Shown in pieces: positions 36,661 through 56,870 of a stretch of 64,000 nucleotides of DNA. Made by a program: the position numbers and the translations under genes. Location: positions 208,501-272,500 of the forward strand of contig CAUYUJ010014597.1 of NCBI GenBank assembly GCA_963575745.1. Direction: 5' to 3'. This stretch comes from Prorocentrum cordatum (Eukaryota; Sar; Dinophyceae; Prorocentrales; Prorocentraceae). Each line of letters starts with the position of its first letter. Position 1 is the first letter of the stretch. Below the pieces are notes generated by a model. That model saw nothing but the letters and a program-made list of their open reading frames with translations, was not told the DNA's origin and did not search any database.

Positions 36661-39339
36661 ATACAGAAAACCAGCCATGCAATCCACAAACACTCTAACA
36701 CGCCACTGCCGTTCAACCACGACGATGGATTCCTTAATTTATGTGTCGGCGCGTTGTAGCAGTGCTCCTTCGTCGGTTCCGTACGATTTGAAAAAAATGG
36801 AGAAGCTAAGGGAGCCAAAAATAGGGGGCCCACACTGACCCAACATGGCCCCCAGATGGCCCTCGACAGCCCCCAGTGGTCCCTTATGACGTCTACAGGA
36901 CGCTTTCTAAAAGTTCACTACGACATAAGAGGGCCCAAGTAATGCTAAAGCTGCAATGCCTTGTTTTTGCGCATGCATTCGTGCGGTGCTGCTTGGTCTG
37001 CGCTAGAGCCGCGCGCGCGGTTCGAATGTAGGTCCGAATAGATACACCTATATATATGTATATATATAACCATATATATATACATGCACACGATCACACT
37101 TCATAGATGCCCCTCTGACATCTCAATGTCATCCTCTGTCTCATCCGTCTCCTCTTCCTCCTCCTCCTCCTCCCACGAGAGAGAGAGAGAGAGAGAAATA
37201 GAGAGAGAGAGAGAGAGAAGGGCAGCGACTTTGGAATAAGAAGCCTCCTATCTGATACAAATGAGATCCTCATCTCGGCGCTCTGGCTGCGAGAGCTAAT
37301 TCCCTGCCCCAGCCGCCGCCTCACGTATGGCGATGATTCGCGCGATCGCCTGGTCACTCGCCGTCAACCAGCGGACCTCGTGATCCTCCCAGAAGATGGG
37401 GTGGTGGCTGAGGTCGACCCTCGCCATGGAAGGATAATACAAATAATAAAAAAAGAGAGGGAGAAGGAAAAAAGGAGGGGTGATATAAACATCAGACAAC
37501 ACGACACACAAGCACAAGCATAAAGAATGTGGAAAAGCTCCGATTCGTCTTCAGGACATTCAGACCAAGGCCGATGTCAGGAAAGAGGGGTGCGAGAGAA
37601 GGGAGGAAAGATGAGGCAGCGGATCTCATGATCTTCCCAAGAGATGGGGCGACGATTGGGCTGAAAATCTAATACGGGCAATGGCAGTATTGAGGCTGGT
37701 ACATCGCAAGGAATCAAATGCAGGGCACTGAGAATACACGACCCCGCCGAAGCCTCCCCGACATCCTGCTAGTCTTCCCTCTTCTCCTCCTCCTCCTCCT
37801 CCTCCTCCTCCTCCTCCTCCTCCTCCCCCTCCTCCTCCTTCTTATCCATGTCTCGTCGTACTACTCGACCTCTTGTCCCCCTCTCCTCATTCATTAAGCT
37901 ACCACTGCTGCACCTCCTGCATTTCCTCCTTCTCCTCCCCTCGGGGAACGCCGGCTGACCACACCACCATTCCTGCCTAGGCCAAGCCAGGAGGCCGTCT
38001 ACACCGACGATGGGCTCAAGATGGGCCTAGCCAGGATCGGTGAGGTGGTCAGCTGAGGTTCACCGGTCCTTCCACGCTCTCCCACAGGCAGCCAGCGCGG
38101 GCGGACCTCCAGAGGAAGTCGACGTAGGGCTTGTGGCTGGACGCCTCCCGACGGTACGCGGCGGGCGTCCAGTGTCGCGCGCTTACCGCGTGCTTTCCAC
38201 GCCCTCCCTTCCCCGTGCGTCCGTCGTTCGGGGCGACGAGCTGCTGCGCCCGCCTGACCCGACGAGCCACTGCGTCCTGCCCGTAACCTACGCGACGACG
38301 CGAAGGACTACAAGGTGAGAGCCAGGGAGAATCCTCCCTCTCCGCCTCCTCCGCATCATCATCCTTCTATTCCGTGTCATTATCCTCCTCCCCGTCTTCC
38401 TCCTCCTTCTCCTCCCCCTCCTCCTCCTCCTCCTCCTTATCACTCTCCTCCTCTCCTCCTCCTCCTCCTCCTCCTCCTCCTCCTCCTCCTCCTCCTCCTC
38501 CATCCCCCTGTCCTCCTCCGCATCCTCCTTATCCTCCTCCTCCCCCTCCTCCACCCTGCTCCTCTCCACTTCACTCCTCTCCTTCATACATCATGCCCCT
38601 TTTCGCGCGCACGCGAATTTCTGTCGGGCTGATAACCACAATCGCGCATGCACAGCTGCGGTTAAACCAAATCTAGGAAGCACGCCATACAACGTGTCTG
38701 CTGAGACAACCGACAAGTTGGAACGCGCTGGACTTTGCACCCTCACCCTGCCTGTAGCCTCTATTCCCACACCCAGTTCATCCTGCGCCGCCTCCTCGTC
38801 CACCTCCTCCCTCCTCCTCCTCCTCCTCCTCCTCCTCCCTCCCCATACTCCGACTGCACCGCATCCTCCTACGACTCCTCAGCACGACTACTCCTCCTAC
38901 CTACGTCATCCTCCCACCCATACAGGCCTCCAATCCTCATAATCCTTCCTACAGAAGCACCTCGACGTCATCTCATACCTCCTCACCACCCGCCCAAATC
39001 ATCCTTAATACTCCTTATTCCTCATCCTCCTCCTCCCTACTGTTCATCATTCCTCCTACGTCTGCATCCTCGAATCCTCATCCTCGATCATCCTCAGTCA
39101 TCCGCTTCCTCCTCCACGTACTAAGCACCCCACACTAAAGCATCCATTGCCCTGCCCCACTCCGCCTCCACCTGAACCTCCCACCCTGAACCTCCACAAT
39201 CGCCCTCCCCAACCTCCTCATCTCTTTTCTATTCCCTCTCCCCCCCCCCCCCCTATCTCCTCTCCTCCTCCTCCCCTTCCTCACTCTCCCTCCCCCCTCC
39301 CCTTCCCCCTCCTCCTCCCTCCTCCTCCTCCTCCTCCTC
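36661..39339. other. Gene-poor stretch with microsatellites
   Basis: TA-rich dinucleotide tract at 37035-37085, GA repeat at 37167-37220, CTC tracts at 37783-37840 and 38400-38560, and CT-rich DNA up to 39340. A 43-codon minus-strand ORF (37428-37297, starting MARVDLSHHPIFWEDHEV) is the only protein-like frame. Part of it has a diverged second copy near 37620-37670. Confidence 0.5.
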
Positions 39340-39389
39340 GGACGTACCTGGGGGATGACTGGGTCAGCTCCATCACACTTGCGGGGCGC

Positions 39390-42300
39390 CTACCGCCACA
39401 GCTGGTACCTCACAGAGGAGGCAAGAGCGCGGGCACGGCATTCAGGAAGATGGTCAATTTCGGCCCTGTGAGCGTTGATGGTGTTGAAGAGGAGGGTAGC
39501 AGCGGCAGGCAGCAGGAGGCTCTCGGCCGAGGGGGAGGAGAGACCAAGTCGCTCGATGGGGCATCCTGGGAGCACTCTCTTCTGGAGGACCAGCGCTAAA
39601 ATGGCCAGGAACCGAGGGCAAGACCAATAGTGTGGCAAACTGTCAGAGCTGGATGATATTCCACATGGCACACAGCCTAGAACACAGAGGGCAGGCTTCT
39701 GAAAGCGAGCCTCCGTCGTCCATCCGTTGACGAGGAGTTTCAAAATCGCATTCGACTGAACTGGTGGAAGCTTCAAGAGACAGTGCTGGGTTTCGGACCA
39801 GGGCCAACCGGCGAGGGTCTCCAGGGATATCGGGAGCCAGGCATTTAATCGCTTGCAGAAAATACCGACCAATGGGTCGGGAAACCGAACTTCTAGGAGT
39901 GTCAGGGCGAGCTTTCCCTGGATCTTCGCACGGCGATTCGGGGGAGGAGGAGGGAGCGAGGTGACGGCAGAGGTGGCAGCAGCAGCGAGGAGCTCACGAG
40001 CGGGGTGGGAGGAGGTGACTAGATCTTGCCCAATGTTGGCAGGAAAGCAAGCTGAGGCGGAAGACAGGAATTCCGCGAATGATGGCTGGCACCAGAACGA
40101 GGGAGACAGAGAGCCAGCAGCACGGGTGGGGAGAGGCAGACATCGGTCCGCGGTTTCACGGAGAGAGGCAAGGACGGTTGGCCAGCTCTGGAGTGTGGTG
40201 GCACTGGATCTCAGGAGAGTGGCCGATGACAGTATGAGAGCGCTTGGGAACTTCGGCCCTCCCCACCTCCAGAGGTTGAAAAAACCAGCGCGAGAGATCA
40301 CACAGTGCGGCGAGCGCCACAGGCGGGCAAGAAGCGCGGCCTCACCTGAGAGAATCTCCGCTGGGAGCGGCATGAACTGGGCGACGTACGTCAGGACACT
40401 GGTGACCCTTGTCGAGTAGAGCTGAGCCGTCACACGATGTGGCCCTTGTTGCTGTGCAAGGATCAAGCCACGGTCTCTCCATTTCTGGATTGGTGCGCGC
40501 CAACTATGAAGATGCACTGCGGGTCCGAGATAAAGACCAAGATATAGAAGTTCTGGAACAATCTTGAAAGAGGACCATGTCGGGATATGGTCGGCGATCC
40601 ATTGTGCGTATCGGTCGTGAGTCACATCTGAGAATGAGCCGCATAACGGAACAATCTTGCACTTTGTCGGCTTGAGCACAAGGGCAGCCACACGAGCGGC
40701 AACCCGAAAGATACGGACAAAGATCTTGAGCACCCTGATGGTCCTGATGGCAGCACCGACGTCGTCGGCGCAAGCACGAACCAGCCCGAGGGCACGACGA
40801 TTGATACTCCAGTCGAAATCAAGCATGAACGGGTCCGCGGCCACTGCGAACAAGAAGCCCGAGCCAGGGCAACCTTGCACTATGCCGCTCTGGATGTAGT
40901 AGAGCCGCGCAGCGTTTCCATAGACAGAGTTGTTGATAGACGAGGAACACGCATTGGCCGACCAGCATTGGACGCAGCGATACAGCTCGGCGAAGAACCA
41001 ACATAGCGCCTCGGGCAAGCCCGCGCGACGGAGAACCAAGAAGAGCCATTGATGGGCCACACTTGGGAAGGCCTGCTGAAAATCGAAACTGACGAGCAGA
41101 GACATGGCTACGGAGACGTCGTCCTGCTGGGAGTATTCCCTCGAGGCCCCATCGAGCTCCACAATGTTGTTCCCAAAGTTCCTGGACGGCACGAACCCCC
41201 TCTGAATTTTGCACACCACCTCTGGGAGAGCACGAGATAGCCGGCGTACGATCGTCCCCGTGATGATTTTGACGTCCGTGTTTTTGAGGCCAAGGGGGCG
41301 CAAGTTGCTGGGGGCCCGCACGCAGCCTCTGAGAGTGTCCTCGGTCTCGGAGCCTTTGGGGATGAAGACGCCTATCATGTCGTTGAAACCTACCATCATA
41401 GCATTTCCACCCAGAATCCACCACATGACCGACAGTAGGACCGATGAGGAGAAAGAGGATCGTTGGTACGCGGCGTATGGGAGACCGTCGGGGCCAGGGG
41501 CTGAGTGAGACAGCCTCTGTATGTAAGACTCCATCTGGGGCTTCGTGGGCGGGGCGATGTTAGCGAAATCGAACTTGGGGCAGAATCTATTCAAATACAT
41601 GTCGGCGGCAGCCTCGTCGATATTTTTGTGTTGGAAGACGGGGCCCCAGTGCGTGGCAATCTCGTGGTGCATTTCCTCGGATGACGAGACAATCGGGCCA
41701 TTTTGAGATCGAATTCCAGTAAGCTCCGTGCGCCGTCCGAATGGCGCCCATATCTTGGCTCGCTGTATGAGCCTCCGAAGCCGCTTCCTGAGCTTCGCAC
41801 GGGCGTGAGCGGGAGCCTGCTGGGCGTCTGCAGCAGCAAGCTCGCGACGGAGAGAGGACCGGGCGGACTCGGCTTCTGCAAATTGGAGCTCGTCCAGCAG
41901 AGTAGAAAAGCGTGCAGGGTCCACGAAACGCACACGTCCCTCCTCAGAGACCTCCAGGATTTCTCGAGCAAATGGATAGCGAAGGAGACGTTCAGCTAAC
42001 CAACGATCTTGGCGCCATACAGCTCTGGATGAGGAGCGCATAACCAGCAACTTCGAAGTGGGGTTCGAGGGTTCGTCCTGGAAGAGCGCGTCCCTGGCGT
42101 ACCTGGCCCCCTCCTTCAGGACGGTTTTGTACATTTCCAGGGCCAGTGGGGGTGAGAGCTCCGAGATATCAATAGCGGGCCAGGTGGCATCCACATACTT
42201 CTGGAACTGCGGGTGTTCAAACAGGTATCTGGGAATCGGCCTGTCGTCCAGGGAAGGGGGAAGTCGAGCACGCAGCGAGGCCAGGATGGGAGCGTGATCT

Positions 42301-43190
42301 GAGAGGCCCCGTTGTTCTAGTGATTCAGGAAGGTCCCGAACGTCCGAGGTCAGATGTAGCAGAGTAAGGATCCAGCCAGGCCAGGATATGAAGATGCGGT
42401 CGATGGCGGATGTGTGTTGGCGAGAGCCATTGTAGTGCGTATTGTCTTGCGGGTCGAGCTCGACCATCGCATTGAAAATCTGCTGCCAAGGTGAGCGGAG
42501 CAGCCGGCGGAACTCGGGCGCGGCAGGGTCTTCAGCCAGCCCACCAGGAAGGGGGTGCGCAGGCAGCGGGGCGTCACGCGGAATGTTGAAGTCGCCCGTG
42601 ACCACGACCAGGTAGTGTTCCGTGTCGCGGCTCGCGATCTCGAGCTCGTGGCGGATGACGCTCAGGATGCGGCTGGTCTGGGCGGGGGTAAGCCCGAAAT
42701 TGTGGATGTTGAAGTGCGAGATGAAGTGGAGGGAGCCGTTGACGGAGCCGTTGACCGAGCCGAGGCAAATCTTCGTGTGCAGGGCACGCCCCTGCACAAG
42801 CACGGTGGAATCGACGTACTTACCATCCCCAGGGAGAGAAGAGATCCTAGGCAGCAGGGTGACCACGCCGCCTTTGTTCAGCTCGGAGAAGAAAGAGTGG
42901 TGTGCCTCATACCCCGAGGCTGAGAAGTGTAAGAAGTCGGCTACGTCGAACTCACTGCCATGCGTCTCCTGGAGCGCAATCACTCGAAAGCCCTTGAGCA
43001 TTGCGCCGAGGTAGGTGGTCTTCAGCGACCGCAATCTCTGATCATGATGAAAGAGAGCTCTCCCATTCCAGGTCCCGAATCCGAGCTCAAAAACAGACGC
43101 GCGACTAGTAAGTCGGAACCAGTCGTTAAAGGCACCACTGTGCCCCAGAAGAGGAGGAGGCAGCGCCAGAGGAGGGAGAGGCCAGGGCGG
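39390..43190 (-). CDS. LINE ORF2: endonuclease, reverse transcriptase, zinc-knuckle
   Basis: The endonuclease comes first: GTWNG (near 43070), LQETHG (near 42970), VVTGDFN (near 42595), AIDRIF and SDHAPIL (near 42295) give the full EEP active-site set. The RT follows: PGPDGLPY, NLRPLGLKN, motif A VSFDFQQAFPSV (near 41080), motif B GIVQGCPGSGFLF, motif C RACADDVGAA (Asp pair 40761-40766), LKPTKCK and LYLGLYLG. The C-terminus has CVLGCVPCG...HYWSCP, a Cys/His knuckle. It would nick the target and prime reverse transcription there. The frame stays open far upstream through ORF1 (to 44345), and no ATG lies between the ORF1 stop and the endonuclease, so how ORF2 is initiated is unclear. No inactivating change seen. 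Confidence 0.9.
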   Translation of the reverse strand, partial: PPWPLPPLALPPPLLGHSGAFNDWFRLTSRASVFELGFGTWNGRALFHHDQRLRSLKTTYLGAMLKGFRVIALQETHGSEFDVADFLHFSASGYEAHHSFFSELNKGGVVTLLPRISSLPGDGKYVDSTVLVQGRALHTKICLGSVNGSVNGSLHFISHFNIHNFGLTPAQTSRILSVIRHELEIASRDTEHYLVVVTGDFNIPRDAPLPAHPLPGGLAEDPAAPEFRRLLRSPWQQIFNAMVELDPQDNTHYNGSRQHTSAIDRIFISWPGWILTLLHLTSDVRDLPESLEQRGLSDHAPILASLRARLPPSLDDRPIPRYLFEHPQFQKYVDATWPAIDISELSPPLALEMYKTVLKEGARYARDALFQDEPSNPTSKLLVMRSSSRAVWRQDRWLAERLLRYPFAREILEVSEEGRVRFVDPARFSTLLDELQFAEAESARSSLRRELAAADAQQAPAHARAKLRKRLRRLIQRAKIWAPFGRRTELTGIRSQNGPIVSSSEEMHHEIATHWGPVFQHKNIDEAAADMYLNRFCPKFDFANIAPPTKPQMESYIQRLSHSAPGPDGLPYAAYQRSSFSSSVLLSVMWWILGGNAMMVGFNDMIGVFIPKGSETEDTLRGCVRAPSNLRPLGLKNTDVKIITGTIVRRLSRALPEVVCKIQRGFVPSRNFGNNIVELDGASREYSQQDDVSVAMSLLVSFDFQQAFPSVAHQWLFLVLRRAGLPEALCWFFAELYRCVQCWSANACSSSINNSVYGNAARLYYIQSGIVQGCPGSGFLFAVAADPFMLDFDWSINRRALGLVRACADDVGAAIRTIRVLKIFVRIFRVAARVAALVLKPTKCKIVPLCGSFSDVTHDRYAQWIADHIPTWSSFKIVPELLYLGLYLGPAVHLHSWRAPIQKWRDRGLILAQQQGPHRVTAQLYSTRVTSVLTYVAQFMPLPAEILSGEAALLARLWRSPHCVISRAGFFNLWRWGGPKFPSALILSSATLLRSSATTLQSWPTVLASLRETADRCLPLPTRAAGSLSPSFWCQPSFAEFLSSASACFPANIGQDLVTSSHPARELLAAAATSAVTSLPPPPPNRRAKIQGKLALTLLEVRFPDPLVGIFCKRLNAWLPISLETLAGWPWSETQHCLLKLPPVQSNAILKLLVNGWTTEARFQKPALCVLGCVPCGISSSSDSLPHYWSCPRFLAILALVLQKRVLPGCPIERLGLSSPSAESLLLPAAATLLFNTINAHRAEIDHLPECRARALASSVRYQLWR

Positions 43191-44325
43191 CGGTGATGCG
43201 GGCCTCCAAGTTCTCGCGGGACATGTTCGCTGCGGTGAGGTTGGTCGTCTCCCACTCGACCAATGTCGGTTCAGAAAGCCTGGGCGTGACCCTGATGAGC
43301 GGCTTCCAGTTGGAGCTGATGATGCCCGTCGACTTGTCGGCGTGCAGCTGAACATTCGGGTAGGTCTCGGACATCGCGCGTCTGGCAAGTTTGGTGGCCA
43401 GCTCACGCCGCACCTGGCACAAGTTCTTGTCCGCCGAGACGTAGAGGGGGCTCGACTCCCCCGTGGTAGTTTGTGCCTGAAGGCGACGGAATTCGCCATC
43501 TCCCACCCGCATAGCTGATAGGGCTTGTGAAACCATCCTGGAAGACCAACCAGGGGCACCACGAACACGTACGATAAATCTCTTGCCAGCGGGCTGCCCC
43601 TCCAGGCGCCAGAACGAATCTTCAAAATTGGCGTCCGCCAGCCAGGGGGTGATGGCGGTGCGGACCGAGGCCATAGTGACGAAGGAGTTGGAGCGGAGGA
43701 CGAGGACGGAGGGGTCGGTTTTCCGCTCGAAGTTGCTGGAGGCTGCCTCAGGGGAAGGGACGGGGTCGGAGCTTTGGACGAGGAGCAGGGCCTTTTTGAG
43801 TTCGGAGATCTCGCCCGCCATGATGTCCATGCGGGTCTGGAGCGTCTTGGTGGTGGCCTCCTGCTTGGCGAGCCGCTGCTCGACCTGGCAGCTGAGTCCC
43901 TGCACGTGGACGGTGATAGACTTCTCAAGCGCGGCCATGGCTTGACGCATAGCAGACATGCCTGAGAGGACGCTGGTCTTGGTGCTCTCGACGTAGGCCC
44001 GAAGTTCGTCGATGCTCCCAGGAGGAGCGGCAGGAGGAGAGCGGTCATCAGAATCACCCATAGCACCAGCCGGCGGGGTGGCTGAGACGAGCTGGCTCTC
44101 GGTGAAGTAGCCGTCGTCGCTGGAAAGCCATGCGGTCTGCGTGGAAGAGAGCTCTGCGGCGGCGGCGGCCGCGGCAGCGACGGAGGAGGCCTGCGCGCGG
44201 GCAGAGGCGCCCCCGCCTTTGCCGCGGCCTGCACCAGTGGGGTATGGGTCGGCGGAGCCCTTGCTGTCGGCCTTGCCTTTGGTCTCCACGAGAGTGAATC
44301 CCTCCGAAGCAGATGCATGGGCCAT
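43126..44325 (-). CDS. LINE ORF1: coiled-coil RNA-binding type protein
   Basis: Starts at the ATG at 44325 (MAHASASEGFTLVETKGK). About 400 residues. An Ala/Gly-rich N-terminus is followed by a long heptad region (from SIDELRAYVESTKTSVLS through RLAKQEATTKTLQTRMDIM and EISELKKALLLVQ), a likely trimeric or dimeric coiled coil. Next is a mixed domain with FEDSFWRLEGQPAGKRFIVR and CQVRRELATKLARRAMSE, reminiscent of the RRM-plus-C-terminal-domain layout of L1 ORF1 proteins. It ends GAQWCL and TAA at 43128-43126, overlapping the ORF2 frame. Presumed role: packaging the element RNA into RNP. Confidence 0.8.
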   Translation of the reverse strand: MAHASASEGFTLVETKGKADSKGSADPYPTGAGRGKGGGASARAQASSVAAAAAAAAELSSTQTAWLSSDDGYFTESQLVSATPPAGAMGDSDDRSPPAAPPGSIDELRAYVESTKTSVLSGMSAMRQAMAALEKSITVHVQGLSCQVEQRLAKQEATTKTLQTRMDIMAGEISELKKALLLVQSSDPVPSPEAASSNFERKTDPSVLVLRSNSFVTMASVRTAITPWLADANFEDSFWRLEGQPAGKRFIVRVRGAPGWSSRMVSQALSAMRVGDGEFRRLQAQTTTGESSPLYVSADKNLCQVRRELATKLARRAMSETYPNVQLHADKSTGIISSNWKPLIRVTPRLSEPTLVEWETTNLTAANMSRENLEARITAALASPSSGAASSSSGAQWCL

Positions 44326-44426
44326 GTGAGAAGAGAGACGTGCAAAGAAAGGTGTCCGCCAGCCTCTGACAGCTGGAATGCTCTGAAAGGAGAGCTGCCT
44401 CACTCAACCTCGGGCCTGTCCCGAAC

Positions 44427-44463
44427 CTTGAGCCAAAATGGCTTGAGCCAAAATGGCTACGGA
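44427..44463 (-). other. Tandem spliced-leader sequences (complete + relict)
   Basis: On the minus strand 44463-44442 reads T followed by CCGTAGCCATTTTGGCTCAA and G, a perfect match to the 22-nt dinoflagellate SL. It is followed without a gap by 15 nt (44441-44427) that repeat the SL from its internal CCATTTT to its end. The second copy lacks the first 7 nt, as expected if trans-splicing used the AG inside the genomic SL (..GTAG/CCATT..). Confidence 0.95.
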
Positions 44464-44606
44464 CCTCCTCCTCCTCCTCCTCCTCCTCCTCCTCCTCTTC
44501 TCCCTCCTCCTCCTCCTCGTCATCATCATTCATCATCATCCACATCATCATCAGCAGCATCATCATCAGCATCATCAACATCATCACCACCACCACCACC
44601 ACCACT

Positions 44607-44657
<51 letters not shown>

Positions 44658-44792: not shown

Positions 44793-45001
44793 TGGACGCC
44801 CGAAATGGGTACGGAAAGAATGGGTACAATGCCCAACAACAAATGTTGTCCCAAACCAACAGCGACCGCTGGTGGGCGGGCGGTCTTCTGTCTCAAATGG
44901 ACACAGGCCGCGGCGGCGCGGACAGCGAGTCCTGTTCAAAATGAGCAGGAACTGCTGTTGGGCATCGTACCCATTCTTTCCGTACCCATTTCGGGCGTCC
45001 A
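44793..45001. mobile_element. 209-bp element with 45-bp terminal inverted repeats (MITE-like)
   Basis: The left end (44793-44837) starts TGGACGCCCGAAATGGGTAC and the right end (44957-45001) is its reverse complement with one mismatch in 45. The ends lie inside CTC-rich DNA; TTCTT occurs just outside both ends (offset by about 2 bp) and may be a 5-bp target duplication. The interior is about 119 bp, with no coding capacity. A transposase for it is not visible in the window. Confidence 0.8.
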
Positions 45002-46262: not shown

Positions 46263-47480
46263 GGGATCTCATATCGCAGCCCCCCAGGGATGGCGAGGTC
46301 TAATTTGGGTCCGCGCGTGGCGTCACTGTGCTGGGCCCCCCAGCAGGCCTCGAAAGTGGCGACGGTTTCACAGATCGCAGCCCCCCAGGGATGGCGAGGT
46401 CTAATTTGGGTCCGCGCGTGGCGTCGCTGTGCTGGGCCCCCAAGCAGGCCTCGAAAGTGGCGACAGTTTCACAGATCGCAGCCCCCCAGGGATGGCGAGG
46501 TCTAATTTGGGTCCTCGAAAGTGGCGGCAGTTTCACAAATCGCAGCCCCCCAGGGATGTCGAGGTCTAATTCGGGTCCGCGCGAGGCGTCACTGTGCTGG
46601 GCCCCCCAGCAGGCCTCGAAAGTGGCGACGGTTTCACAGATCGCAGCCCCCCAGGGATGGCGAGGTCCAATTTGGGTCCGCGTGGCGTCACTGTGCTGGG
46701 TCCCCAGCAGGCCTCGAAAGTGGCGACAGTTTCACAGATCGCAGCCCCCCAGGGATGGCGAGGTCTAATTTGGTCCGCCGTGGCGTCACTGTGCTGGGCC
46801 CCCCAGCAGGCCTCGAAAGTGGCGACAGTTTCACAGATCGCAGCCCCCCAGGGATGGCGAGGTCTAATTTGAATCCGCCGTGGCGTCACTGTGCTGGGCC
46901 CCCCAGCAGGCCTCGAAAGTGGCGACAGTTTCACAGATCGCAGCCCCCAGGGATGGCGAGGTCTAATTTGGGTCCGCGCGTGGCGTCACTCTGCTGGGCC
47001 CCCAAGCAGGCCTCGAAAGTGGCGACAGTTTCACAGATCGCAGCCCCCCCAGGGATGGCGAGGTCAAATTGAATCCGCCCGTGGCGTCACTGTGCTGGGC
47101 CCCCCAGCAGGCCTCGAAAGTGACGACAATTTCACAGATCGCAGCCCCCCAGGGATGGCGAGGTCTAATTTGGGTCCGCGTGTGGCGTCACTGTGCTGGG
47201 CCCCCCAGCAGGCCTCGAAAGTGGCGACGGTTTCACAGATCGCAGCCCCCCAGGGATGGCGAGGTCTAATTTGAATCCGCCCGTCGCCCTCGCTGTGCTG
47301 GGCCCCCCAGCAGGCCTCGAAAGTGGCGACGGTTTCACAGATCGCAGCCCCCCCAGAGATGGCGAGGTCTAATTTGAATCCGCGCGTGGCCCTCTCTGTG
47401 CTGGGCCCCCCAGCAGGCCTCGAAAATGGCGGCAGTTTCACAGATCGCAGCCCCCCAGGGGTGGCGAGGTCAAATTTGAA
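46263..47480 (+). repeat. Roughly 100-bp satellite array, left block
   Basis: About 12-13 units with TCGCAGCCCCCCAGGGATGG, CGAGGTCTAATTTG, GTGCTGGGCCCCCCAGCAGG and TCGAAAGTGGCGACAGTTTC. One unit is shortened near 46515. The array stops abruptly at 47480 inside a unit, where the tyrosine-recombinase retrotransposon begins. Confidence 0.95.
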
Positions 47481-47735
47481 TGCATCATTTTTTCCAGTAT
47501 CTGCTTGAAGAACGGAGCCTGGCACAGGGCAGCTTTGGCAAGCGACAACGGCCTGCGGCAATAAAGACGTCTGGAGGCGACGGGCTGGCTGTGGGAGCCA
47601 GAAAGACTACAGAGCAGGTATGAAACGGAACTGTGCGATGCAAACTCGTTCAACAACGTACATGCATCATTTTTTCCAGTATCTGCTTGAGGAACGGAGC
47701 CTGGCACAGGGCAGCTTTGGCAGGCGACAACGGCC
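47481..47735 (-). repeat. Split direct repeats B2 - spacer - A2 - B1
   Basis: B2 (47481-47553) and B1 (47663-47735) are 73 bp each with two differences; both start TGCATCATTTTTTCCAG on the plus strand. A2 (47597-47663) is 67 bp and abuts B1. Confidence 0.9.
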
Positions 47736-48416
47736 CATCTACAACAAAGCACAGTACCCATCAACAAGCATTGCACTGGCCTAGCCGTGAAGCAACATCC
47801 ATTTTCTAGAAACCACCTTGGCGACAATTGTTTGCGAGAACATTCGAGCAAGCTGCTTGCAAAGAGCGTCGGGATAGGCGGACTTTTGCTGAGTGCGAAA
47901 GTGGGTGGCACCGCTCTACTTCCCAGACAGCTCGAGATGGGGCCGTCCTGAAAAATCACACACGCCGCGGCCATGACACTTCATAGCCAGAAGAGAAGGA
48001 GAGGGGCGACAATGCAGAAATTGGAGCCTAGTGCGCGCACGAAAGGGACGACCAGCAGCACATTAATCAACAAAGGCTTCAGAGAAAAAAGGAGAGTGAT
48101 GGCGACGTGCTCTGTCTGGAAAATGCCAAAGCCAACTGCTACCAGGGTTCTCTTCACCGATAGGGATGCCAAACTTTGCTGCGAGCTGCCAGATCTGCCC
48201 CGCGCGGGAGGCAAGCAGGTTGCCAAGCTCCAGCTTGGCCTGATCGGCTGCAGCTAAGCCCGGCAAGCCAAAGACGTGTGCGCTGTCACGAAGGCGTCGA
48301 GGCATGCGAGATGCAGGGCCGCCTCGTCGCGCTTGCGAGAGCGACTCGAATCCAGCGGCCAAATGTTCGCACTCCAGCCGCTGGTGGGCTGGAATCGTTA
48401 TCTTCTCGATCGCCAC

Positions 48417-49460
48417 TCACGCGTGCTTGTCGTAGCGCTGCACGCTGTTGAAGGCGTGCCAGCTTCCGAGCTGCAGCTTCTCCATTAGCGTGCGGCTGGC
48501 CGTCAGGCGGTCGAGGATGTCGCCGCCGTGCCTGAGGCTGCAAAGCGTGCCTGCTAAACAGCTGGCTCGCACAGCCTCGAGCACCTGGCCAAACCGCCGC
48601 AGGAAGAGGCTGTAGACGAAGTCCCACAGCGGGTGCCAGAAGCCCAGGCGGGGGTCGCGGAGGCGCACCAAGGCCCAAGCCAGGGCCTGCTGCCGCGGGG
48701 AGACCCGCGCAACGGTGTGGTCCAGCTCGCCCGTCTTGCCTGGCTGCTGCCACTTTGTAACCGGCACCACTAATGACATGCGCAGGCGCTTCCAACTTGG
48801 CAGCGAGTGGGCGAGCTGCGGGAAGCACCTCTGCAAGGGCGCCAAGTGCCGCTGAGGGAGACCTCCAAGCACCGCGACGCCAAGCTTTGCAGTTGTCGCC
48901 CGCGCCACCTTCAGGTCGAAGGCCCACCGCAGGAGGTCGGTCAGCGCTGCGTCCCAAGCCGCCACGGGCCAGTCGGGCAGCACGTCCACCATGAGCCACC
49001 CTGCCAGCAGCAGCAACACCTTCAGGTAGAGCACCAGAGTGGACGGCTGCACCACGTTGGCTGCCAGCAAGCCCTGGCGGGGCAGCCAGCGGGCCTGTTC
49101 CGGGGCGGAAAGCGGCGGTGGCTGCGCTCTGCTCCTTGCGGATCCGCCACCACCAGCGGCTCGCTTCGGGGTCGGCGAAGCGCCTCCCACCTCTGGCAGG
49201 CTCGGCTGGCCGGCCGGCGGAGCAGCCTGGAGCGTGCGGACCTCCTGCATGGCCACTGCCGTTGTGACGCCTGAACTGGTCTTTGTGCTCGGGCCAAGAC
49301 GGCTCCGTCCCAGACTGGAAACGTCTCGAAGGGCCATCTGCAGGGTTGAGCTCTGAGGGGATCCATCTGAACGTGACCTTGAGGTTGCAGGCGACCGATA
49401 TGGCAAAGGAGCAGCGGCAGCCAGACAAGAGACCAAAGTCGGACGCACGACCCTTTTCAC
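48417..49460 (-). CDS. Tyrosine recombinase of the DIRS-like element
   Basis: The functional start is probably the ATG encoding MQEVRTLQAAPPAGQPSL (near 49250). A helical N-terminal core-binding part (STLVLYLKVLLLLAGWL, ALTDLLRWAFDLKVARAT) is followed by PSWKRLRMSLVVPVTKW and the catalytic C-terminus SLRHGGDILDRLTASRT (near 48504-48540), then LGSWHAFNSVQRYDKHA with the candidate nucleophile Tyr at 48434-48432. LRHGG followed ~30 residues later by SVxRYxK is the signature of the recombinases of these elements. It would integrate the circular cDNA. The frame is open; the N-terminal ~70 codons overlap the end of the RT-RNase H frame. Confidence 0.8.
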   Translation of the reverse strand: MKRVVRPTLVSCLAAAAPLPYRSPATSRSRSDGSPQSSTLQMALRDVSSLGRSRLGPSTKTSSGVTTAVAMQEVRTLQAAPPAGQPSLPEVGGASPTPKRAAGGGGSARSRAQPPPLSAPEQARWLPRQGLLAANVVQPSTLVLYLKVLLLLAGWLMVDVLPDWPVAAWDAALTDLLRWAFDLKVARATTAKLGVAVLGGLPQRHLAPLQRCFPQLAHSLPSWKRLRMSLVVPVTKWQQPGKTGELDHTVARVSPRQQALAWALVRLRDPRLGFWHPLWDFVYSLFLRRFGQVLEAVRASCLAGTLCSLRHGGDILDRLTASRTLMEKLQLGSWHAFNSVQRYDKHA

Positions 49461-51354
49461 GGGCGCAGATCATCGACATGTTGTCACCCAAGCCCAGAAG
49501 ACGATGCCCGTGGCATCTCGAATTGCGAGAGGCGCGCCGCAGCCAGAGAAGCCCTGCTGAGCTTTCTAGCCTGTGGATGGTACTTTGGCGCCTCCACTTG
49601 CATGCAACAGCCGTGACCCAGGTCGCTTCACGCAGCAGCTCAGAGCTCACCTCGGCGAAACCTGCCGCACGCCCAAGTAAGAGTGCGTCCGGGTCCGAGA
49701 GCTCGATGCTGTCGGCAGCCAGGGCAGCGCCCCGCGGGGCCACCAGTGAGGCGAGGGGCCCGCGAAAGCGCAGCTTCTCCGGCTGCCTGCCCGCGGCCTG
49801 CACTGCGCTCAAGGGCCAGTGCGCAGTGCAGACTCCCGCGCCCCACGGCGACGCGTCGAAGGCACCCGCCTCAGCGTGCCAGGGCCTCTTCATATCGGCG
49901 AACACCGTGGGCAACAGTGCGAGCACCCACCTGAGCTCGCGTCGGCAGCTGGGCCACAGCGGCTGCGCCCTGTCGTAGGTGAAGCGGATGAAGACGTAGA
50001 CTGCACTGAGGAGGCTGAGCGCCTCACGGCGCAGCAGCAGCAGCGCAACCACGTGACCCACGAGCCTCTCCAGCTGGCGCCCCGTGATACGTCTTCCCGG
50101 CTCCAGCAGGTGCGAGATACAACCATGCACTCTCCAAAACTTCTCGGGTGCGGGGCGCCACCTGGCGGCCTTCGCGTCCAGCGTGAAGCCGAGGAGGACG
50201 ACATCCAGGTCAAGCGATGCCTTGACGCCCTCACTGGTGAACGAGTCGAGCACGTCGTTGACCACCTGCAATGCTGTCTCGCGGCTGGTGCTAATGGCAG
50301 CAAAGTTGTCTATGTACAAGACCTTGGCTGCGGCTGAGCTGTCAGAGAGGCACGCCCCAGGCTGCTTGTCCACCAGCCACTGGTTGCTCGGAGAGACCGA
50401 GGCCAGCACATTCAGGTGGGCAGATTGCACAAAGTGGACGGCCCAGTTCCAACCCATGGGAACGACCCGCACGCGGAAGGCTATCCTGGGCCGAGCAGAC
50501 AGCTCTGGCCCCGACGCCTCGCGCAGGCGGGCCGGCAGCATGCGGGTCGCCAGGCTCGGTAAGCAGAAGTAGTTCCTGGCCCAGGCCGGCAGCGCGCACT
50601 GGTAGAAGCAGACCTCCACATCGCCCGCAGCCAGGTGCACCTCCTCACCGGGCGTGCACTCCAAGCTGCTGAGGGCGTCGCCGGAGGCCAAGTGCGTGTA
50701 CTCGGGCGTCCTGAAGTGGCAGTTCGCCCTCCTAGTGTCGAAGATGAGCCTCAGCTTGTCATCTTTGCGTGGCACGCAGAAGACGCCCGTCTCCTCCTTC
50801 CGTTCCAGCTCGTAGTCCAAAACTTCGACGATCCCTGCATCGTAGAGCTCGAGCAGGAACCGCCCGTAGTCAATGCCCCGCTGCGCCAGCTTACCGTCCA
50901 CGTAACACGTGACGTCCGCCTCCTCCAGAGCAGCAGTAGCCTCCTGCTCCGAGCGCAATAACCCGTGCCCAGACTCCAGCGCCGACTGCAGGTGCGCGGG
51001 CAACAGCCGAACAAGATCGACACGCCCAGCACCGCCAGAAGGAAGAGAGACCCTCCCGCGCTGGTAGCCGGCTCTCGCCCCGATCGCTGGCTCGTCAGCA
51101 TAGCCAGGCCGAAGCCCCAGAAGCGCCTGAAACGCCTCCTGGTTGGTGCAATCCTCAGTCCTCGGCGGGACCGCGGCGTAGACCCCCTTCAGATGCTGCA
51201 GCGCGGAGCGCTGCGCCAAGCTGAGGCGGCCGGCCCGCCGACCGCCCGCCACCGCCCAGCTCGTTGAGCGCCGCGACGCCTTCCAGCATCCAGCGCTCCT
51301 GGCGCCTGCAACGAGCGGCTTTGCGCCGCTGCCCCAGCGAGAGCTCGCCGTCAA
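49220..51354 (-). CDS. Reverse transcriptase-RNase H of the DIRS-like element
   Basis: The open frame runs on to 48286 but meaning ends near 49.2 kb. RT: KLRLIFDTRRANCHFR, motif A AAGDVEVCFYQ, motif B VVPMGWNWAVHF, motif C VLYIDNFAAI (50301-50325), then LDLDVVLLGFTLD. RNase H: FDASPWGAG (49841-49860), LGDNMSMICAREKG (near 49480) and IPSELNPADGPSRR (near 49330). The second residue of the YxDD box is Asn (YIDN). No protease domain is visible, which fits DIRS-order elements and argues against a Gypsy-type element. It overlaps ORF1 by 200 bp in another frame. Confidence 0.85.
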
Positions 51355-53288
51355 GGGCAGAGAACCCCTTCAAGCACTGGAGCGCCTCCGAGTAGAGCGG
51401 GATAGGCAGCGCGTCTCTCTGCGCGAGACCGTCATCGCCAAAACCCAGCGAGGGGGCATCGCCGTTCAGCACGCCTCGCCTCCCCTGCAAACTCGCGCCG
51501 AGGTCGGGGGGCCCCTCGGCGCGAGGGGGCGCCTCAGGCGCCACGGCCGCGCCCGCGGCCGTACGCCTTGGCCTTGGCACCCGCCGCTGGTTCGCCAGAG
51601 GCCGCACCGCGGTCGGCGCCGCGCTCCAGCAGCCATTCCTCTCGCCCCTTGTTGCGCTCCTTGAGGATGGCGCATCCCCCTCGGGGCATCGTCGCCACCC
51701 AGCTAAGCTCTCCCCGGCGGCGCAGACAAGCGCCGAGCCGCGGCTCCTGCCCTGCCCGAGGAATTTGGGTCGCCCATCGAGCCAGGGCGCAGCGCCCTGA
51801 CCAGCCTCACCCTCGCGCAAGCTCGACGCATACGGCTCCTCCCAGAGCTGGTCGCGGCGGCAGCGGGTCTTCTCCACCACCACCAGCTCGCAAGCGTCGA
51901 GCCGGTCCTCGGTGGTGAGCTCCTGCAGCACCTCCAACGTGAAGTGGTGGTCGTCCATGCCCGAGTCCAATGCTGTGAGCCCCTGGATTGACCTCGACCA
52001 GCACTGCCTCTGCCGCGGCATGTAGTCCGCCTCCAAGATCTTCTCGAGCAGCACGGCCGCGGTCCTCGGCCCCTTGCAGCGCCCGTTCGCGACGGGCGTG
52101 GTGGCCATCTTGGCCAGAGCGTCATGGAGCAACCTGGAGCGGCCGCCCGATGGCAAGTAGAGTACTGGCAGCGCGGGAAGGCCCCCACCGCTGCCGGACA
52201 GCGCGGCCGCCACTGCCTCCAGGATGTTGGCCACGGCGACCGCGAACGAGATGCCCGAACCCAGCAGCATGTACCCGCGACCGCCAAGCACGACCTGCGG
52301 CTGGCCACCAGCTCCAAGGGGCTCAGGCGAGATACGAGTCCCCGCCGTGGAGCCCCCCCGCGTCCCTGCTGCAAGCCAGACCGCGTCCGCCGGTGGCGCC
52401 GCGAGCCGCGGCGGTGCTGGGGCAAGGAGAGGGCCTGCCGCCGGAGGCCCAGGCGACGCGGCCGGCGCGGCCGCCAGGGCGCCAGCCCCAGCCGCGGCTC
52501 CAGCCGCTGGCCCAGCGGGCCACGCGGCGGCCAGCAGCGCCGCAGGGGACGGCGCCTCCGCAAGTGCCTCCGCCTCGCCGTCGGCGCACGCCCCTGTGTG
52601 TGCTGCTGGTGCAGGCGAGCCATCCTCCTCACGAATGTCCGCTGCCATCGGCGCCGCCTCGTTGCATAGCGATGGCAGCACAGCGCTGAGCCGAGCGCTG
52701 CCCGCCCGCGAGATCTGCCCCTGCGGCCTCCGAACAGGAATGCCACCCCGAGCTCCCAGCGGCAGCCGAAGGAGCGATTGGGACATGTTCTTACCATAGA
52801 TGTCCCCAGGCGCGGTGAGCACCCCGAAGCGGAAGTCCTGAACACGTGCCAGCATGATCTTTTCATGCCAGAAGTCATCGCGCAGCTCGTAGTAAACGAG
52901 GGCCCTCGACCCCACTTGACGGCTCTGCAGGCAGTGCCGCGTGCGCTCTGCTAAGCTGCGGGCCGCCATCCAATCCTGACCTCCACGGGCGTGCGGTCCT
53001 CTTCCACACGGCGCCTGCTGTCGCTGCTGAGAGCACACCCGCGAGCAGCCCTACGACGAAGATGCCCCGCGCGAACGGCGGCTCGGGGCACTGCAGCGGC
53101 GGACAGCTTGGGCACACAGGACAGGTGAGCTGCTCTGGTCCGCAGCGCTCCAGCTGTCGACCCAGGAGGCCCACGATATCGCTGCTGACCTGGCAATCGG
53201 CTATGCAATGGCAGTCGGGGCAGCGGGCGACTGAAAGAAGAGGGGCCCAAGGAGCGATAGCCTGCAATCCTCGCAGGGCCAAGTCCAT
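51155..53288 (-). CDS. ORF1 (gag-like) of the DIRS-like element, one apparent frame change
   Basis: An ATG at 53288, four bases inside repeat A1, opens MDLALRGLQAIAPWAPLL, followed by CPDCHCIADC and CPVCPSCPPLQCPEP and a hydrophobic segment (GIFVVGLLAGVLSAATAGAVW) that could span a membrane. This frame closes at 52875. From about 52980 another frame carries on protein-like sequence for about 610 codons: DWMAARSLAERTRHCLQS, LVYYELRDDFWHEKIMLARV, a long Ala/Pro linker, GMDDHHFTLEVLQELTTEDR and LVVVEKTRCRRDQLWEE. A single-base shift near 52975 would join them. Cys pairs plus a basic C-terminus are compatible with an RNA-binding Gag role, but the family has no assigned function that I know. Confidence 0.6.
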
Positions 53289-53291
53289 TAA

Positions 53292-53358
53292 GCCAGAAAG
53301 ACTATAGAGCAGGTATGAAACGGAACTGTGCGATGCAAACTCGTTCAACAACGTACAT
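53292..53358 (-). repeat. Split direct repeat A1 (5' end of the DIRS-like element)
   Basis: 67 bp, identical to A2 (47597-47663) except for one base (ACTATAGAGC versus ACTACAGAGC). Satellite sequence resumes directly after it at 53359 with CCGCGCGTCGCCCTC. Confidence 0.9.
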
Positions 53359-54255
53359 CCGCGCGTCGCCCTCACTGTGCTGGGCCCCCCAGCAGGCCTC
53401 GAAAATGGCGACAGTTTCACAGATCGCAGCCCCCCAGGGATGTCGAGGTCTAAGTCGGGTCCGCGTGTCGCCCTCACTGTGCTGGGCCCCCTAGCAGGCC
53501 TCGAAAATGGCGACAGTTTCACAGATCGCAGCCCCCCAGGGATGGCGAGGTCTAATTGAAATCTGCGCGTCGCCCTCACTGTGCTGGGCCCCCCAGCAGG
53601 CCTCGAAAATGGCGACAGTTTCACAGATCGCAGCCCCCCCCAGAGATGGCGAGGTCTAATTTGAATCCGCGCGTGGCCCTCTCTGTGCTGGGCCCCCCAG
53701 CAGGCCTCGAAAATGGCGGCAGTTTCACAGATCGCAGCCCCCCAGGGATGGCGAGGTCTAATTTGAATCCGCGCGTCGCCCACACTGTGCTGGGCCCCCC
53801 AGCAGGCCTCGAAAATGGCGACAGTTTCACAGATCGCAGCCCCCCAGGGATGTCGAGGTCTAATTCGGGTCCGCGCGTCGCCCTCACTGTGCTGGGCCCC
53901 CTAGCAGGCCTCGAAAATGGCGACAGCTTCACAGATCGCAGCCCCCCAGGGATGGCGAGGTCTAATTGGAATCTGCGCGTCGCCCTCACTGTGCTGAGCC
54001 CCCCAGCAGGCCTCGAAAATGGCGACAGTTTCACAGATCGCAGCCCCCCCCAGGAATGGCGAGGTCTGATTTGAATCTGCGCGTCGCCCTCACTGTGCTG
54101 GGCCCCCCAGCAGGCCTCTAAAATGGCGGCAGTTTCACAGATCGCAACCCCCCCAGGGATGGCGAGGTCTAATTTGAATCTGCGCGTCGCCCTCACTTTG
54201 CTGGGCCCCCCAGCAGGCCTCGAAAATGGCGACAGTTTCACAGATCGCAGCCCCC
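53359..54255 (+). repeat. Roughly 100-bp satellite array, middle block
   Basis: About nine units in the same orientation as the left block, differing mainly in GTCGCCCTCACTG and CTCGAAAATGGCG. It continues the left block across the inserted retrotransposon. Confidence 0.95.
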
Positions 54256-55394
54256 CGCAGGCAAGACAGGAAGAGGCAGGGAGGGAGGGAGGAGGAGGAA
54301 GGAAGGAGTGGAGATCACACTGCTCTATTCAAAACGAATACCCAACCAAGGAGGGTTGGGAAAAATGAACCGCAACAACAACCGTAGTTGGGAGATTGCT
54401 CGGTTGGTTTCAAAGGAGGTTTGGGGAGGGGGTTCAGGAGTACGACTCTTTGTAAGTATGGGGCTCCGAAAACCATCGACAACCATAGATCAACTTCCAA
54501 GTTGGGGGGTCGTTCTGAAGTTGATTGGGTGGTTCTGAAGAAGGTTTTAGATATACTATTGCTTTTGATTTTGGGACGCCGGAGCCCCCGAAAACCCAGC
54601 GAAGAACCCTCGAATTGGAATGTCTTTAGGGGGTTTTCACCCCTCGATCGCGGGCTGGCCGGAGAGCCCCTGGACCCCCCCTCGGAAAACATGCGAGTTG
54701 GGTTGTTTTACTTGCGTTCGGGGGGAGTTCTGGTATGGTTCTCAAACATCATATGATGTAGCTTGTTTCCTTGCGTGGGGCCGAACACCCCGAAAAACAT
54801 GTTGGTTGTTTATGTTGTTGTTTGTGTCTGGTTGTTATTGGGGAAAGATCAGGCATAGTTGTATGTTTTTTTTGTGAGGGACCCTGACCCCCCGTGAAAA
54901 CCATGCACAACTCCCGAGTTGGGTTTTTGTTTGGGAGTCTTCCTTCCTGGAGCTTGGGCTGGGCGGAGAACCCCCGACCCCCTCCCCCGAAAAACCATCG
55001 AGTTGGAAGGTTTCTCGGTGGATTGTCGAAGGAATTCTGGAAGGGTTTTCAAACATAGTATGATTTTATGTGTGGGGCCATGGACCCCCCGAACACTCAT
55101 TGAACTCCCCCCCGAGAAGTTTCGGTGTTTTTTTAGGGGGGGGGACACATCGTGTTGCTGTTAAGTGTGGGGTCCCAAAATACTTCGAAAACCAACCGAA
55201 AAGCCTCCGAATTGGGTTTTTGTTTCGGGGGTGTTTCCAACGGTTTGTTTGTTCCCAAACCTCCTTGGTTGGGTATTCGTTTAATAGAGCACCGCAATCG
55301 CGTCTTCCTCCTCCTCCCGCCTCCCTCCTCCCGCCTCCCGCCTCCTGCCTCCCGCCTCCCGCCCCCCCTCCTTCTTGTCTCCTCTTGCTTTGCT
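54256..55394. repeat. Centre of a large inverted repeat
   Basis: Left and right ends are reverse complements: GGAGG-rich linkers (54268-54305; 55308-55385), then TGCTCTATT and ACGAATACCCAACCAAGG (54321-54357; 55254-55297 on the other strand). The about 900-bp core holds 4-5 diverged units with CCCCGAAAACC, GAGTTGGG and TCAAACATAGTAT words. ORFs in it are not protein-like. Confidence 0.8.
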
Positions 55395-56870
55395 TGGGGG
55401 GCTGCGATCTGCGAAACTGTCGCCACTTCCGAGGGCTGCTCGTGGGCCCAGAGGAGTGAGGCACCGCGCGGATCTGAGAGAGACCTCCCCGTCCCTGGGT
55501 GGCTGCGATCTGCGAAACTGTCGCCACCTTCTAGGGCTGGTCCAGCGGAGTGAGGCACCGCGCGGATCTGAGCGAGACCTCCCCGTCCCTGGGGGGCTGC
55601 GATCTGGCAAACCGTCGCCACTTTCGACACTTCCGAAAGCTGCTGGTGGGCCCAGCGGAGTGAGGCACCGCGCGGATCTGAGCGAGACCTCCGCGTCCCT
55701 GGGGGGCTGCGATCTGCGAAACTGTCGCCACCTTCTAGGGCTGGTCCAGCGGAGTGAGGCACCGCGCGGATCTGAGCGAGACCTCCCCGTCCCTGGGGGG
55801 CTGCGATCTGGCAAACCGTCGCCACTTTCGAAGGCTGCTGGTGGGTCCAGCGGAGTGAGGCACCGCGCGGATCTGAGCGAGACCTCCCCGTCCCTGGGGG
55901 GCTGCGATCTGGCAAACTGTCGCCACTTTCGAGGGCTGCTGGTGGGTCCAGCGGAGTGGGGCACCGCGCGGATCTGAGCGAGACTTCCCCGTTCCTGGGG
56001 GGGTGCGACCTGCGAAACTGTCGCCACGTTCGAAGGCCGCTGGTGGGTCCAGCGGAGTGAGGCACCGCGCGGATGAGCGAGACCTCCCCGTCCATTTGGG
56101 GCTGCGATCTGCGAAAGTTTCGCCACTTTCGAAGGCTGATGGTGGGCCCAGCAGAGTGAGGCACCGTGCGGATCTGAGCGAGACCTCCCCGTCCCTGGGG
56201 AGCTGCGATCTGTGAAACTGTCGCCACTTCCGAGGGCTGCTCGTGGGCCCAGCAGGGTGAGGCACCGTGCGGATCTGAGCGAGACCTCCCCGTCCCTGGG
56301 GGGCTGCGATCTGCGAAACTGTCGCCACTTTCGAGGGCTGCTGGTGGGTCCAGCGGAGTGAATCACCGCGCGGATCTGAGCGAGACCTCCCCGTCCCTGG
56401 GGGGCTGCGATCTGCGAAACTGTCGCCACGTTCGAGGGCTGCTGGTGGGCTCGCAACTCTCGAAGGCTGCTGGTGGGTCCAGCGGAGTGAGGCACCGCGC
56501 GGATCTGAGCGAGACCTCCCCGTCCCTGGGGAGCTGAGACCTGCGAAACTGCCGCCACTTTCGAGAACTGCTGGTGGGTCCAGCGGAGTGAGGCACCGCG
56601 CGGATCTGAGCGAGACCTCCCCGTCCCTGTGGGGCTGCGATCTGCGAAACTGTCGCCACTTTCGAGGGCTGCTGGTGGGTCCAGCGGAGTGAGGCACCGC
56701 GCGGATCTGAGCGAGACCTCCCCGTCCATGGGGGGCTGCGATCTGCGAAACCGTCGCCACTTTGGAGTGCTGCTGGTGGGCTCGCAACTTTCGAAGGCTG
56801 CTGGTGGGTCCAGCGGAGTGAGGCACTGCGCCGACGTGAGCGGGACCTCGCCGTCCCCGGGGAGCTATGT
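55395..56870 (-). repeat. Roughly 100-bp satellite array, right block, inverted
   Basis: About 14 units, the reverse complement of the satellite at 46.3 and 53.4 kb but diverged (CTGCGATCTGCGAAACTGTC, then GCGGAGTGAGGCACCGCGCG, then GAGCGAGACCTCCCCGTCCC). ORFs up to about 480 codons across it are repeat artefacts. Confidence 0.95.

Follow-up and report, generated by a model that had tools for sequence, protein, structure and literature searches.

Tandem arrangement of a spliced leader and a leader relict at the 5′ border of a LINE in Prorocentrum cordatum

How does a LINE come to begin with a complete dinoflagellate spliced leader (SL) and, directly behind it, a shortened second one? This question is raised by a locus in Prorocentrum cordatum, which was analysed within a stretch of 64,000 bases of DNA (hereafter the window). 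Leader relicts, multiple ones included, are already known from dinoflagellate genes, and pieces of leaders are known from flatworm retrotransposons. Passages of PMC3229502 report relicts truncated after nucleotide 7 at an AG and situated directly downstream of a full leader in cDNAs and genomic DNA; in the model given there, a trans-spliced mRNA is reinserted and expressed once more, whereupon the AG of its first leader accepts a further trans-splice. Tandem relict leaders were reported by Slamovits and Keeling (2008), as described in sections of PMC3229502, PMC3942190, PMC6050394 and PMC6616646. For two isolates of Polarella, excerpts of PMC7245778 give one relic in 0.68% and 2.31% of the full-length transcripts and multiple relics, which are rarer, in 0.020% and 0.048%, with four relics in 30 transcripts. 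Moreover, few retrogenes carry multiple leaders according to parts of PMC6050394, where the reverse transcriptase that recycles dinoflagellate mRNAs is called unknown and LTR elements of the Ty1/copia type are favoured; for viral inserts, LINEs are favoured in portions of PMC10235124. Among the papers listed in searches of mainly non-subscription literature, none was found to describe a dinoflagellate LINE with leaders in tandem.

Sequence and position of the leader pair

Both strands of the window were scanned with the pattern of the 22-nt dinoflagellate leader at up to 3 mismatches, which gave two matches, compared with 0 in 100 shuffles. One is a complete leader without mismatches, reading TCCGTAGCCATTTTGGCTCAAG on the minus strand, the last 15 bases of which are repeated directly after it without a gap; the other (44427-44448, minus strand, 3 mismatches) consists of this relict and the last bases of the leader before it. 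With the pattern of the 15-nt relict at up to 2 mismatches, two perfect matches were obtained in the 64 kb, at 44427-44441 and 44442-44456 of the minus strand, while the shuffles (n=100) gave a mean of 0.10 per shuffle and never two. No further match to either pattern was present in the window within these limits, and Tandem Repeats Finder described the pair as a 15-bp unit in 2.1 copies with 100% matches. A chance origin of the pair was rejected on the shuffle counts (0/100 for the leader, two relicts never). The relict starts at leader position 8, exactly past the AG at leader positions 6-7, as expected of recycled cDNA by the rule in passages of PMC3229502, and the leader lies directly upstream of transcript-derived sequence in the genome, which likewise marks a recycled leader-tagged cDNA. 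The relict is followed by GT (GTTCGGG), as it would be by the donor of an SL RNA gene, and the sequence then continues into the LINE.

On its inner side the pair adjoins GTTCGGGACAGG, the start of the LINE 5′ UTR. A separate retrogene next to the LINE was rejected because zero bases lie between the leader pair and this UTR, which is provisionally assigned to the LINE from one copy. On the outer side the first base of the leader is flush with the (GGA)n tract, with (TGA)n further upstream, neither of which is element-like. An earlier note on this DNA had claimed a perfect 22-nt leader with a gapless 15-nt relict, located exactly at the 5′ border of a LINE; the first point is borne out by the matches without mismatches and the shuffles, the second by the adjoining UTR and the microsatellite on the other side (Table 1).

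Table 1. Coordinates of the leader pair, the LINE and the flanking repeats in the window
Feature	Position	Strand	Remarks
5′ flank, (GGA)n (CCT on the plus strand)	44464..44518	-	Purine-only over the 40 nt next to the leader
Full 22-nt spliced leader (D = T), outer and putatively younger unit	44442..44463	-	0 mismatches; 5′ border of the insertion
15-nt relict, leader positions 8-22, inner and putatively older unit	44427..44441	-	Perfect copy, 15-bp period
LINE 5′ UTR (GTTCGGGACAGG...), 101 nt	44326..44426	-	Contains acceptor-like CTCTCCTTTCAG
ORF1, 399 aa from the first ATG, and stop	43126..44325	-	Frame open from 44403
ORF2, tested piece of 1256 aa, start approximate	39390..43160	-	AP-type endonuclease, reverse transcriptase, C-terminal CCHC-like motif
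3′ UTR, ending in ...CAGGTACGTCC	39340..39389	-	No poly(A) at the junction
3′ flank, (GAG)n-rich (CTC on the plus strand)	39257..39339	-	Possible target-site duplication with the 5′ flank

The whole window was compared with Rfam, which may not include the dinoflagellate SL RNA, and no family reached its gathering score. For the section 44250-44650, 19 weak matches were listed up to E 5 (best 0.017), none of them over the leader; all 19 lay on the simple repeats at 44490-44650 and were taken as chance, and 17 of them were snoRNA models.

Leaders were also searched for in other contig collections. The 30-nt double relict was found in 0 stretches of the IMG/VR contigs, the 21-nt leader in 1 stretch there and in 2 of the GTDB contigs, and a 17-nt relict in 3 stretches of the IMG/VR contigs, one of them on the contig with the 21-nt leader. 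In the ORF lists of the contigs L001, L004 and L005, no LINE was seen. The IMG/VR contig L001 contains on its minus strand (1936-2766) a spliced leader, 45 nt and then a 254-aa ORF, with GGGAAAAAATAAATTT after the 3′ region, and a second leader (2893-2913) 147 bp upstream of the first. The GC content is 49.5% from the leader to the end of the ORF and 18% in the contig outside both the insert and the stretch between the leaders. This insert has the appearance of a host cDNA that was tagged with a leader and taken up by a virus-like genome, whose viral status is taken from the collection only; no viral hallmark was found in the scanned L001 ORFs. L004, from a Dehalococcoidia bin, starts with (TCA)n followed by a complete leader and unrelated sequence (positions 1-60) and is probably a chimeric or contaminant dinoflagellate fragment. 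In L005, also from a Dehalococcoidia bin, a leader at 4334-4354 (minus strand) is followed by GTACG, an arrangement that resembles an SL RNA gene, GT donor included, on what seems to be a contaminant contig. A full leader thus abuts a trinucleotide repeat in two cases, the present locus and L004, and no claim can be based on so small a number; no such repeat adjoins the leader in L001 or L005.

The LINE, its flanks and its surroundings

By its sequence, the element behind the leaders is classified as a non-LTR retrotransposon of the AP-endonuclease type. ORF1 and ORF2 are both without internal stops, and the ORF2 frame is open down to the stop at 39392-39390. In the longer frame 39390-44345, Pfam matches to RVT_1 (2.2e-15) and Exo_endo_phos (2e-7) were obtained, so that a reverse transcriptase domain and an AP-like endonuclease domain with catalytic motifs, the features of an APE-type LINE, are both present. 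The motifs in ORF2 are WNGR, QETHG, GDFN and SDHAPI of the endonuclease, ADD of the reverse transcriptase, and a CCHC-like motif at the C-terminus. Ten PDB sequences matched ORF2, headed by 8c8j, named RNA-directed DNA polymerase (1.2e-9), and followed by four named LINE-1 ORF2 protein (2.7e-9 to 4.8e-9); R2-type proteins and others made up the remainder (5e-7 and weaker). A single NCBIfam match of ORF2 below the cut-off (exosortase, E 0.046) was judged to be chance.

For ORF1, no NCBIfam match and no Pfam family above the cut-off were obtained; weak matches, two in Pfam below the cut-off (E 0.03 and 0.072) and two in PDB (E 0.045 and 0.96), concerned no LINE protein. A single-sequence structure model of ORF1 with a mean pLDDT of 51 contains a predicted helix of 80 residues and then strands and helices in the order of an RRM. 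Foldseek returned nothing at E ≤0.001 for this model, with human L1 ORF1p at rank 12 (E 0.12); in a further ORF1 search L1 ORF1p was not among the 50 matches listed, which carries no weight either way. An L1-like layout of the element is thereby suggested by the model. A second copy of the LINE was not found within the window. Relatives of ORF2 were absent from the IMG/VR contigs (1 pattern-matched stretch) and the GTDB contigs (8 pattern-matched stretches), and a tblastn search of phages gave no match; these collections are viral, prokaryotic and viral by design, respectively, so that the results carry little weight. The earlier description of the LINE as intact can be kept in the sense of open ORF1 and ORF2 frames with predicted endonuclease and reverse transcriptase motifs, and means this only.

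At the 3′ end the sequence passes from GTACGTCC straight into (GAG)n, and no poly(A) was seen at the junction. Retrocopied mRNA usually carries poly(A), although such a tail is no part of the definition by leaders in PMC6050394. The (GAG)n on both sides may represent a target-site duplication, at most 22 bp long, with borders that are ambiguous in a simple repeat. Due to the fact that perfect CCT/GGA tracts of at least 12 bp make up 1.6% of the window, one insertion into (GGA)n is no evidence of a target preference. The 40 nt upstream of the leader consist of purines only, and 0.18% of the sampled 40-nt stretches on both strands are equally poor in pyrimidines. With no pyrimidine in these 40 nt, the AG of the leader stands in a poor splice context, and a further splice at this AG in the present copy looks unfavourable, as judged from the sequence. 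The CTCTCCTTTCAG of the 5′ UTR, with 11 of 15 pyrimidines, looks like a better 3′ splice site than the leader AG in the present context.

In the neighbourhood of the LINE 5′ flank, two 49-nt inverted repeat arms with 96% complementarity, 111 nt apart (44793-45001), form a candidate MITE- or introner-like element. Further away, long open frames occupy the minus strand at 48286-53038. RVT_1 was matched weakly there (E 0.048, below the cut-off), and by eye a YIDN motif can be seen, as can an end resembling a tyrosine recombinase (48417-49460), for which there was no Pfam match. The frames had no match in PDB, and the element is possibly DIRS-like. Satellite arrays of about 101 bp are located on both sides of it (46273-47481, 53357-54256 and 55395-56866). 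By eye, the two arrays flanking the element agree in orientation and have similar units, and the third looks like their reverse complement.

Origin of the tandem arrangement

From the observed final sequence and borders, we infer a cycle of trans-splicing and insertion as the best explanation: the LINE RNA was probably trans-spliced and inserted, then re-transcribed, spliced again at the AG in the genomic leader and inserted again. In this course of events, a LINE transcript would first have been trans-spliced just upstream of GTTCGGG, gaining the 22-nt leader, and the leader-bearing RNA would have been reverse transcribed down to its first nucleotide and inserted. Upon transcription of this copy from outside, the AG at leader positions 6-7 would have served as the 3′ splice site, with a new leader in place of the first 7 nt and a 15-nt relict left behind. 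The twice-leadered RNA would finally have been copied in full length and inserted into the (GGA)n tract. The agent was most likely the LINE's own reverse transcriptase acting in cis, which is favoured because the 3′ end is without the poly(A) expected of retrocopied mRNA. Two rounds are supported by the perfect leader and relict with a boundary exactly after AG, by the first leader base at the microsatellite junction, by the open ORF1 and ORF2 with catalytic motifs, and by the possible (GAG)n target-site duplication and the 3′ junction without poly(A). It weighs against them that a single locus is the basis.

The upstream flank of the present copy is purine-only for 40 nt, and the assumed re-splicing must therefore have occurred at another locus. 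If a pyrimidine tract is required, an insertion in the present orientation would stop the ladder of leaders. Re-splicing of the RNA only, without a DNA stage, was judged unlikely, because 5 nt before the AG in a capped leader leave no room for a branch point. A genomic leader may also act as a promoter, according to parts of PMC6050394, and would then not be re-spliced, which counts against two rounds, as does the small number of retrogenes with multiple leaders. Moreover, the LINEs of Symbiodiniaceae and Polarella are described in passages of PMC8045281 and PMC10235124 as old, highly divergent remnants, so that recent LINE activity would be particular to the present species or family.

Among the alternatives, an unlikely but best surviving one is that an SL RNA gene with a leader and a partial leader donated both units in one trans-splice, followed by a single insertion. 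Such genes are on record in sections of PMC6616646 for Fugacium kawagutii, with one SL gene of 2 leader units, one of 3 and 13 SL-like genes bearing several leaders, full or partial; one-step tandem donation is itself stated there as an alternative for the relicts of transcripts. However, according to the same sections, 16 of the 18 Fugacium SL genes have a single leader, and the 13 SL-like genes, which were selected for several units, are without a donor and thought by the authors to be unspliceable. All Fugacium SL genes have GU or GC after the leader, a rule that the LINE locus (GTTCGGG) passes as well; some tandem SL genes may accordingly be 5′ ends of retrocopies.

A local duplication, in which a 15-bp tandem copy arose by slippage or AG microhomology after a LINE with one leader had been inserted, is regarded as quite improbable. 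Both units are identical and bounded by AG on each side, as it would predict, but the duplicated unit starts exactly after AG and ends at the leader end, like the published transcripts, which a random duplication would be expected to do rarely. Since the identical sequence would result from an SL RNA with leaders in tandem or from a duplication of 15 bp, the "at least two generations" of the earlier note are not secured, while the pair, the AG boundary and the LINE border do match the published mRNA-recycling model. In the same way, the leader is present at the 5′ end of the LINE, but the statement that the element uses trans-splicing to regenerate this end over-reads one copy.

It is very doubtful that the pair was captured once and has since been inherited as the fixed 5′ end of the LINE family, perhaps as a promoter or translation signal, although a promoter role of genomic leaders has been proposed for retrogenes (parts of PMC6050394). 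Against this, the leader is perfect and directly abuts the microsatellite at its 5′ end. The least credible alternative is a template switch during insertion, in which the reverse transcriptase came to its end or to a pause at leader position 8 and moved to a second RNA with a leader, from which the outer unit was added in the same event. For this the enzyme would have to resume precisely at the last base of a leader exon, and this end is normally exposed in splicing intermediates only. About 70% of the leader-type cDNAs of Polarella start at the cytosines of leader positions 2 and 8 (excerpts of PMC7245778), which might reflect pausing at these positions; the authors cite the 5′ selection method and methylation.

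The preferred explanation by two rounds of trans-splicing and insertion can be extended to the LINE family, and this we regard as tentative and rather unlikely: the family would live by trans-splicing, each new copy receiving a fresh leader and a 15-nt relict in a ladder that counts generations, and the same reverse transcriptase, if able to copy RNA with a leader cap as far as the first base, would be a source of cDNA recycling across dinoflagellate genes. If sister copies differ in leader number, generations could be counted copy by copy. The presence of leader and relict on an open LINE provides evidence for the entry of LINE RNA into trans-splicing, and likewise that leader-bearing LINE RNA can be inserted to its first nucleotide.

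Comparison with known systems

The closest parallel is found in the relicts of dinoflagellate mRNAs and retrogenes, where the same full leader precedes a copy lacking its first 7 nt, up to and including the AG, an order that is read as repeated reverse transcription and reinsertion. In contrast to these, the RNA of the present locus encodes retrotransposition machinery and its 3′ end is without poly(A). The element resembles LINE-1 in its AP endonuclease and reverse transcriptase, with matches to L1 ORF2p structures, and possibly in the long helix and RRM-like element order of ORF1, which were predicted with low confidence; it differs from LINE-1 in the missing poly(A) tail and in a 5′ end formed by the host leader. 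The L1Tc/ingi LINEs of trypanosomatids live in a host that trans-splices its mRNAs. They differ in that their 5′ end carries Pr77, an activator of transcription that yields abundant unspliced, translatable transcripts according to the abstract of PMC8190864.

In flatworms, genomic leaders are likewise joined to LTR and LINE elements. In parts of PMC12582326, 597 discarded loci, mainly with such elements, are reported and the integration of trans-spliced retrotransposon RNA is proposed, and portions of PMC5832876, whose authors add a caveat on the assembly, report the Schistosoma leader at six transposable or retrotransposable elements. Phylum and leader are different there, and these sources speak of partial leaders or leader-containing elements rather than of a full leader and a relict in tandem. 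The endogenous dinoRNAV elements, finally, show a leader relict beside an insert mediated by a retroelement, with LINEs proposed as the agent in sections of PMC10235124; there, however, the insert is viral, and a leader is located within 500 bp of 6 of the 26 RdRp ORFs.
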